A program made the position numbers and the translations under genes. Of a DNA stretch of 32,973 bases, positions 17,575 to 23,334 are shown piece after piece. The notes beneath the pieces were generated by a model. That model did not search any database. It had not been told where the DNA came from and saw only the letters and a program-made list of their open reading frames with translations. Each line of letters starts with the position of its first letter. The first letter of the stretch is position 1. Source of the stretch: Actinomycetota bacterium (lineage in GTDB: Bacteria; Actinomycetota; Humimicrobiia; Humimicrobiales; Humimicrobiaceae); assembly GCA_028698215.1 (NCBI GenBank), contig JAQVDY010000018.1, positions 1-32,973 of the forward strand, read 5' to 3'.

Positions 17575-17693
17575 TGCAATCTCCATCCTATTTTTTTACA
17601 AGCAGAAACAGGAGTAATTATATAAAATAATATTTGATAAAAAAAGAAATTATTTTAAAATAAAGAGATTGTTCTTAAGAAGGAAGGTATAAA

Positions 17694-19079
17694 ATTAAGA
17701 ATTATTTAAAATATCTTATCATACTGGTAGTAATTGGCCTGATAGCAGTGGGCATATTTTTTGCTGTAAGGGGAAACCGGGACCAGGAAACGGCGGAGCA
17801 GCCTCCCGCCCCTCAGCAAGAAACAGAACCGGAACCGGAACCGGAGCCTGAGGCAGAAGAAGTTATTTCCAATTTTTATGCCAGCAGTTCTTCTGATTTT
17901 GCTCCCTACTCTTTTATAAGCCCTGCCGGCTGGGAGCTAACCGAGGAAGAAGGCGGATCCCGGGTGACTTTAAGCAGGGATGGCGGTGCCATGATGCTAA
18001 TGGTGGAAAAAATTGCGGACATAGAAGATATGGAAGGGCAGGATTTAGCGGACAGCTATATAGAGATAACCGAAGATATGGATGTAACCCAGGCGGTAGA
18101 AGAAGATTTTAGCTGGGGAAAGGACCAGGTTAAGCTTTATGGTTATATGTATGAAAGCGGCCTGCAGCCGGAACAGGAGCAGATAGACCTGCTATGCTGG
18201 AACCAATATCAGGACTATGCTTATATTTTAAAATACATGGGAAGCTCCAGCCTGGATAATGCCAAAAAGGATATGGAAAAGGTACTATCTAATTTTAACT
18301 GGGGCCAGGGCCCTTCCTCTACCATAAAGGCCGAGGACAGCGATGCCATCAATATCCTCATATTGGGGGATGACAGCGCTTTTGACCGGCCGGGAGGAAG
18401 AGTCAGCGGCAGGACCGATATTATCATGCTGCTGCATCTTAACCTGGAAAATTACCAGGGTACAATAGTTACCATACCCAGGGATACCTGGGTGCAGATC
18501 CCGGGACATAATGAGACCAAGATTAATGCTGCCCATGCCCTGGGCGGAAACGAGCTTACCGTGGAGACCATAGAACAGTTTTCAGGCCTGGATATTGATT
18601 TCTATGTAATTACCGACTTTGACGGTTTTGTCCCCCTGGTTGATTTCCTGGGAGGGGTAACGGTGGAGGTAACCGAGGATCTGGCCGACAGCTTTTCCAA
18701 TTGTTATTTGGATAAGGGGGTCCACCACCTTAACGGGGAGCAGGCACTAGCCTTGAGCCGGAACCGCCACCGTAATGACGGGGCTTATGCCCGGGAGAAG
18801 GAAGCAGCCAAGATAATAGTAGCCCTATATGAGCAGAAAACAACTTTAGAAAAGATTGTAAAGCTGCCTGCCTTTATTAATTTCCTGCTAAACTACACCT
18901 GGACCGATATGGATTTTTCAGATGCGGTTAGGCTGCTGCCGGCTTTAGGAAAAATTAAGGCCCAGGATATAGAAATCACCACCATACCCTCCTGGCCCCA
19001 GATGGTAGGCCAGGCCAGCGCTGTGGTTTATGATGAAGAAGCTACTGCCCAGTTGTTTGAAGAAATTAAAAACCAATAG
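17694..19079 (+). CDS. LCP (LytR-CpsA-Psr) protein with an apparent ATT start
   Basis: Members of this family transfer wall glycopolymers from lipid carriers to peptidoglycan. The product is 461 residues: a membrane anchor (about 5-25), a Pro/Glu linker built from a GAACCG-type repeat, a domain of about 120 residues resembling PsbP/Mog1-like extracellular modules (YSFISPAGWELT onward), then the LCP catalytic domain with SGRTDIIMLL, IPRDTWV, KINAAHALGG and RNRHRNDGAYARE. The first conventional codon, GTG 17748, would cut the anchor in half. Upstream, AAGGAAGG lies 6 nt before ATT 17694, with an in-frame stop at 17676. ATT thus gives a complete anchor (KNYLKYLIILVVIGLIAVG). A sequencing error cannot be excluded. 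Confidence 0.85.
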   Translation: MKNYLKYLIILVVIGLIAVGIFFAVRGNRDQETAEQPPAPQQETEPEPEPEPEAEEVISNFYASSSSDFAPYSFISPAGWELTEEEGGSRVTLSRDGGAMMLMVEKIADIEDMEGQDLADSYIEITEDMDVTQAVEEDFSWGKDQVKLYGYMYESGLQPEQEQIDLLCWNQYQDYAYILKYMGSSSLDNAKKDMEKVLSNFNWGQGPSSTIKAEDSDAINILILGDDSAFDRPGGRVSGRTDIIMLLHLNLENYQGTIVTIPRDTWVQIPGHNETKINAAHALGGNELTVETIEQFSGLDIDFYVITDFDGFVPLVDFLGGVTVEVTEDLADSFSNCYLDKGVHHLNGEQALALSRNRHRNDGAYAREKEAAKIIVALYEQKTTLEKIVKLPAFINFLLNYTWTDMDFSDAVRLLPALGKIKAQDIEITTIPSWPQMVGQASAVVYDEEATAQLFEEIKNQ

Positions 19080-19144: not shown

Positions 19145-19220
19145 GCGGAAGTGGCTCAGTTGGTAGAGCATCACCTTGCCATGGTGAGGGTCGCGGGTTC
19201 GAATCCCGTCTTCCGCTCCA
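19145..19220 (+). tRNA. tRNA-Gly (anticodon GCC)
   Basis: A 76-nt cloverleaf. The acceptor stem is GCGGAAG (19145-19151) with CTTCCGC (19210-19216), the discriminator is T, and the CCA end is encoded (19218-19220). The D arm is GCTC-AGTTGGTAGA-GCA. The anticodon stem is TCACC/GGTGA around the loop TTGCCAT. The T arm is GCGGG-TTCGAAT-CCCGT. Seven T residues follow directly and should end transcription. Confidence 0.97.
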
Positions 19221-22714: not shown

Positions 22715-22797
22715 ACCAAATGGCGGCTAACCAGCTTGTTGATTTGGTTATAAATAAATAAAAAATAGGTAGGTGGTTTTACTTGCCTATTTTTTTT
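22715..22797 (+). terminator. infC leader: hairpin plus intrinsic terminator (attenuator)
   Basis: Two structures lie in the leader. The first closes with ACCAAAT (22715-22721) and ATTTGGT (22742-22748), containing a short GGCT/AGCT inner stem. The second is a 10-bp stem, AATAGGTAGG (22764-22773) against the segment ending CCTATT (22791), with two G-T pairs, followed by eight T residues (22790-22797): a textbook intrinsic terminator. It lies 28 bp before infC and inside its transcript, so it most likely acts as an attenuator, as in infC/L20-type leaders. The L20 or other ligand is inferred only. Confidence 0.75.
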
Positions 22798-22824
22798 GTA
22801 TTAATTTTAGTGGAGGTGAAATAA

Positions 22825-23334
22825 ATTAATAAAAGCATCAGACATAATGACCAGATAAGGGTGCCTAATGTTAGGCTTATTGACGAGGATGGTTCCCAGG
22901 TAGGGGTAATACCTACTAAAGAAGCCATGGACCGTGCTTATGAAAAGGAACTGGATTTGGTAGAGGTGGCTCCCAATGCCAACCCTCCCGTATGCCGCAT
23001 CATGGACTACGGAAAATATAAATATAAGCTGGAGATATCCGAAAAAGAGAAGAAAAAGAAGCAGACGCAGGTAATAGTAAAGGAAATAAAGCTTAGGCCC
23101 AAGATTGATTCCAATGACCTTAATACCAAGAAGAACCATATAAAGAGGTTTCTAAAAAGCGGTAATAAGGTAAAGGTTACGGTAATGTTCAGGGGCAGGG
23201 AAATAGTGCATAAGGAAATGGCCATGGATATGCTGGCGAAGGTTATACAGGAGCTGGAAGGCCTGGCAGTAGTGGAGCAAGCACCCAAGCTGGAAGGTTA
23301 TAATATGATTATGGTTTTAGGGCCGGCTACATAA
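22825..23334 (+). CDS. infC: Translation initiation factor IF-3, ATT start
   Basis: IF-3 binds the 30S subunit, prevents premature 50S joining and rejects wrong start codons. The frame opens at ATT 22825 with GGAGGTG 6-7 nt upstream, right after an in-frame TAA, giving 169 residues, the family size. The conserved N-terminal stretch HNDQIRVPNVRLIDEDG is complete only from this start; GTG 22861 would remove it. The N domain runs to about residue 80 (VAPNANPPVCRIMDYGKYKY), then a Lys/Glu helix linker and the C domain (EIKLRPKID to MVLGP). ATT is the classical infC start used for autoregulation by IF-3. First gene of infC-rpmI-rplT-pheS-pheT. Confidence 0.96.
   Translation: MNKSIRHNDQIRVPNVRLIDEDGSQVGVIPTKEAMDRAYEKELDLVEVAPNANPPVCRIMDYGKYKYKLEISEKEKKKKQTQVIVKEIKLRPKIDSNDLNTKKNHIKRFLKSGNKVKVTVMFRGREIVHKEMAMDMLAKVIQELEGLAVVEQAPKLEGYNMIMVLGPAT

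Follow-up and report, generated by a model that had tools for sequence, protein, structure and literature searches.

The window, meaning the whole stretch of 32,973 nucleotides that was analysed, corresponds to contig C18 of a draft genome of 1.78 Mb (G000), which appears to belong to a Humimicrobiaceae-like family of Actinomycetota. Its forward strand carries a gene for an LCP-family (LytR-CpsA-Psr) glycopolymer transferase at 17694–19079 (461 codons plus stop). The LCP catalytic domain is present: the protein matches PF03816 over residues 240–381 (E 1.5e-38, 132.7 bits against a cut-off of 24.6) and NCBIfam TIGR00350 (124.6 bits against a cut-off of 62.3). The LCP gene is separated from thrS by a tRNA-Gly (GCC) gene (19145–19220). 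Farther along the same strand is infC (22825–23334; NCBIfam TIGR00168), which encodes IF3 and begins with ATT behind the Shine-Dalgarno sequence GGAGGTGA (22812–22819, forward strand; duplex about -15 kcal/mol). A T-rich, terminator-like hairpin (AGGTAGGTGG..CTTGCCTATTTTTTTT) precedes infC within 22740–22800, and similar hairpins precede infC in other genera; none of the Rfam leader families reaches its cut-off at this hairpin.

The start of the LCP gene

The LCP reading frame is closed upstream by an in-frame stop, TAA, at 17676–17678. This is followed on the forward strand by the Shine-Dalgarno sequence AAGGAAGG (17680–17687), six bases, and ATT (17694–17696), exactly where the initial annotation had placed them. 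A consensus scan predicts a promoter-like TTGATA-16-TAAAAT farther upstream (17634–17661, forward strand; 10/12 matches). At this place TTGATAAAAAAAGAAATT is also found upstream of the orthologues in G002, G017 and G021, and it is kept upstream of the LCP gene across several genera (loci L002, L009 and L013).

Scanning the frame from the stop at 17676 yields no ATG, GTG or TTG before a GTG at 17748–17750 (forward strand), which falls within the predicted membrane anchor (residues 7–25, 17712–17768, forward strand). Read from the ATT, the best 19-residue hydropathy window scores 3.04, at residue 7; read from the GTG, the best score is 0.48. The N-terminal membrane anchor characteristic of the LCP family is therefore obtained only with the ATT start. 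Duplex energies with the anti-Shine-Dalgarno sequence likewise differ between the two codons, at -9.8 kcal/mol before the ATT and -3.1 kcal/mol before the GTG. The LCP Shine-Dalgarno sequence is good, but weaker than that of infC or ruvB. The gene thus shows both marks of a genuine AUU start, the lack of a usable canonical start and a Shine-Dalgarno sequence properly spaced from the ATT. It very probably opens with the rare start codon AUU at 17694.

Translation could instead begin at GTG 17748 and give a protein without the full membrane anchor. Standard gene finders accept no earlier codon in the frame, and the sister species G002 has a GTG at the same place. No Shine-Dalgarno sequence precedes it in either genome (-3.1 kcal/mol in G000, -2.9 kcal/mol in G002), a start there would lose the anchor that the orthologues carry in full, and the codons upstream of it are under protein-level selection (see below). 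We therefore consider a GTG start very improbable. The initial annotation had also described this codon as the first ordinary start and as lacking a ribosome site, and both statements are borne out.

Conservation and age of the ATT codon

Relatives of the LCP protein were retrieved by an alignment query of genome contigs; a single-protein scan retrieved none. Among them is that of the sister species G002, whose LCP protein is 74% identical and whose gene has ATT at the same codon. It also lacks a canonical codon upstream of the ATT, which is preceded by a purine-rich Shine-Dalgarno sequence, AGAAAGG (-5.5 kcal/mol before the ATT, compared with the value given above for its GTG). Between the ATT and the GTG, nine codons are identical in the two species, seven differ synonymously and two non-synonymously. 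The same differences read in the two other frames give synonymous:non-synonymous ratios of 1:7 and 0:8. In the 12 codons that precede the ATT, one change is synonymous and 11 are of other kinds. Because the ratio is 7:2 after the ATT and 1:11 upstream of it, protein-level selection begins at the ATT of the LCP gene.

This comparison also bears on two further accounts of the codon. The first takes the ATT at 17694 for a miscalled ATG, introduced in sequencing or assembly. Both genomes are drafts, and other genera have ATG at this position; the same codon in an independent species whose LCP protein is 74% identical nonetheless makes an error even less probable than the GTG start. The second holds that the gene is a decaying pseudogene whose start codon has been lost. 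In a single genome a point-mutated start would look the same, but the frame is open over 461 codons, the LCP motifs are conserved and the N-terminal changes between the two species are mainly synonymous, so that we give decay as little credence as error. The ATT start put forward in the initial annotation is upheld, as firmly as sequence evidence allows, by the shared codon, by the onset of selection and by the anchor.

A conserved start with coding selection from it is found for the LCP gene in G002 and not beyond. Elsewhere the gene starts with ATG (in G001, of the same genus, and in G014, G017 and G024) or with GTG (in G010). No LCP orthologue was found in G003, an 84% complete draft. The alignment of orthologous N-termini that the initial annotation had proposed in search of a conserved ATT therefore succeeds for G002 and fails for G001 and for other genera. 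Since those genera have ATG or GTG at the position, the ATT, present in these two species only, is a recent change in the G000/G002 pair. The simplest history suggested by these codons is that it arose in their common ancestor. In some LCP orthologues (L006, L014 and L016), a lipobox-like cysteine follows the hydrophobic stretch (e.g., SISSCSK and VLSSCSK) in place of a plain anchor, and members of the family may thus not all be anchored alike.

Other AUU, AUC and AUA starts in the family

The initial annotation had regarded ATT starts as practically confined to infC and pcnB. This does not hold for the present lineage, in which ATT, ATC or ATA also opens several further genes. We surveyed ∼45% of G000, taken as stretches, against about half of G002 and obtained 291 reciprocal best pairs, of which ∼275 remained once rRNA and antisense frames had been set aside. 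A gene was counted when its conserved N-terminus offered no usable canonical codon and a Shine-Dalgarno sequence preceded an ATT or ATC there; genes with a canonical codon only a few residues farther on can escape this rule. Seven of the ∼275 pairs (2.5%; 95% interval 1.0–5.2%) begin with one of these two codons: LCP, infC, infB, rsmD, ruvB (with ATC), a gene of etfB type and one with a PHP domain. The ATT of the PHP-domain gene is secure in G000 only; G002 is ambiguous, with a GTG three codons upstream. Most of the 47 pairs flagged in the first survey for missing canonical codons were discarded by eye as conserved promoters, an RNA gene upstream of dnaX, rRNA or antisense frames, or genes whose normal start lay a little way into the aligned region. 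A candidate at L149 was rejected since it has a normal ATG. Applied to another genus (184 genes of G023 compared, infC outside the sample), the same screen returned rsmD only.

In the core genome of Listeria monocytogenes, 6 of 2265 genes have fixed non-canonical starts (PMC13068326). Listeria thus resembles G000 in having several such genes in one genome, at ∼0.3% of genes vs ∼2.5% of the G000 sample, a comparison between differing survey methods in which the Listeria paper alone supplies the background rate and our G000/G002 and G023 runs all lie within the family. Judged by these start regions, the lineage appears to have unusually many non-canonical starts, with LCP as one of several cases.

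The most uniform of these cases is rsmD, which encodes the 16S rRNA G966 methyltransferase. Its start is ATT, ATC or ATA in 29/29 genomes of the family (12, 8 and 9, respectively), and in 27 of these there is no ATG, GTG or TTG from the in-frame stop to the start codon. Outside the family, in the same class or phylum, rsmD starts with ATG, GTG or TTG in 26/26 genomes, nearly always at this exact codon (Fisher 3e-16, a value that overstates independence because the genomes are related). Within the family the third base shifts among T, C and A and has never settled on G. Since the protein would begin with fMet whichever start codon is used, this variation indicates that a strong start is selected against and, at the level of codon comparison, implies selection for a weak one.

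The start of infC is ATT, ATA or ATC in most genomes of the family. Genus g7 and G016 (L114, L122, L125, L128, L129, L132 and L133) show a different arrangement: TTT or TTC stands in place of ATT (AGGAGGTGTAAT-TTT), and neither ATN nor NTG occurs in frame from the Shine-Dalgarno sequence up to the point where IF3 becomes conserved. A UUU or UUC start of infC is possible in these genomes, where the alignment is short. The etfB-type gene has ATT, ATA or ATC in 14/21 genomes, mostly behind AGGTGAT-like sequences, ruvB has codons of this type behind AAGGAGG-like sequences in about 17/30, and infB has them in 5/7 genomes read; the remaining genomes have canonical starts or are ambiguous. By their distribution, infC and rsmD would be among the oldest members of the family's AUU/AUC/AUA set and LCP a recent recruit.

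A separate peculiarity of the family concerns truB, the gene for a tRNA pseudouridine synthase. In 26 of the 27 family genomes displayed (loci L417–L446; L186:13039-13882 in G000), a -1 frame change is needed to join the N-terminal part to GHAGTLDP, and only G013 is in frame. The joint is a T9 or T10 run in nearly all genomes and A9 in G010. The arrangement looks like conserved slippage or programmed frameshifting.

Probable initiation at AUU and its possible control

The initiation apparatus of G000 appears ordinary in the parts read. Anticodons were read for the tRNA genes except those of C5, C12, C19 and C20 (four of 43). The possibility of an altered initiator tRNA was dismissed: three of the tRNAs read have a CAU anticodon, and one of these is an ordinary initiator with a normal GGG:CCC stem. 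An unusual IF3 was likewise rejected, since almost the entire protein, FRGRE motif included, can be aligned with solved IF3 chains.

We consider it highly probable that the LCP gene, a recent recruit to such starts, is translated from AUU 17694. Most likely the ordinary initiator tRNA begins translation there inefficiently, with the aid of the Shine-Dalgarno sequence. The CAU anticodon of the initiator would mispair at the third position of the AUU, and the Shine-Dalgarno helix would compensate in part by holding the initiation complex at the codon. Initiation would then be weak and little LCP protein would be made, in an amount that may follow initiation stringency. By analogy with the known cases below, the protein is probably kept low, and control of the gene by the level of IF3, as the initial annotation had suggested, is plausible.

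Known AUU-type starts offer several points of comparison. Like LCP, infC has an ATT behind a Shine-Dalgarno sequence, and the initial annotation was right that it does so in this same window; unlike LCP, it autoregulates its own product, whereas LCP is a cell-envelope enzyme whose ATT is recent. E. coli pcnB is another non-infC gene with AUU, which is described as limiting its expression (Binns and Masters 2002, as cited in PMC13009471), but gene and lineage are unrelated to those studied here. In Staphylococcus aureus, cvfC1 (AUU) and ccpN (AUA) also have conserved starts behind Shine-Dalgarno sequences, which are strong there. These genes belong to Bacillota, their Shine-Dalgarno sequences are longer and their starts were confirmed by ribosome profiling (PMC13009471). 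Expression from such AUU and AUA starts, with their extended Shine-Dalgarno sequences, was ∼10% of that from AUG and, for one of the genes in rich medium, as much as 30% (PMC13009471). Streptomyces sigR, from the same phylum as G000, shares with LCP a non-canonical start with a Shine-Dalgarno sequence. Its GTC start is repressed by IF3, and relief of this repression misregulates the stress response (PMC5472188). The sigR codon differs in being mismatched at two positions, and its regulatory use and IF3 control were established with mutants (PMC5472188).

Whether the LCP start also responds to regulation divides two readings that agree on the ATT itself. The ATT may be real and set a low level only, with no regulatory tie to IF3 or initiation stringency. 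Its recent origin and confinement to two species fit this account, as do the mixed functions of the other AUU/AUC/AUA genes and the finding that S. aureus cvfC1 AUU showed no medium dependence (PMC13009471). The general discrimination of IF3 against AUU-type codons and the IF3 control of Streptomyces sigR GTC (PMC5472188) argue the other way. We lean somewhat towards a start that sets the level only.

A broader form of the regulatory reading would treat the AUU, AUC and AUA starts as a maintained class, read out by initiation stringency and feeding back on the judging of start codons, which LCP has joined. The third base of the start codon, which is mismatched in AUU, AUC and AUA, lies opposite C34 of the initiator tRNA. 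G966, the target of RsmD, stacks on this C34, and in E. coli initiation with a mutant initiator increases when RsmB or RsmD is lost (review PMC7949028). Feedback through start-codon scrutiny is conceivable because G966 stacks on C34 opposite the wrong third base. The proposed class covers IF3, RsmD and, in part of the family, IF2; three of the seven survey genes (infC, infB and rsmD) belong to the initiation apparatus or encode its modifier. The inclusion of genes without an initiation role, the small count and the post hoc grouping count against it, and we regard such a class as rather unlikely.

Starts of this kind matter for annotation, as programs restricted to ATG, GTG and TTG truncate or miss genes that begin with AUU, AUC or AUA. 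Within the family, rsmD is a clean natural case, with AUU, AUC or AUA in every genome read and AUG in none. Because infC, infB and rsmD are among its members, the set can be used to probe self-regulation of start-codon scrutiny.
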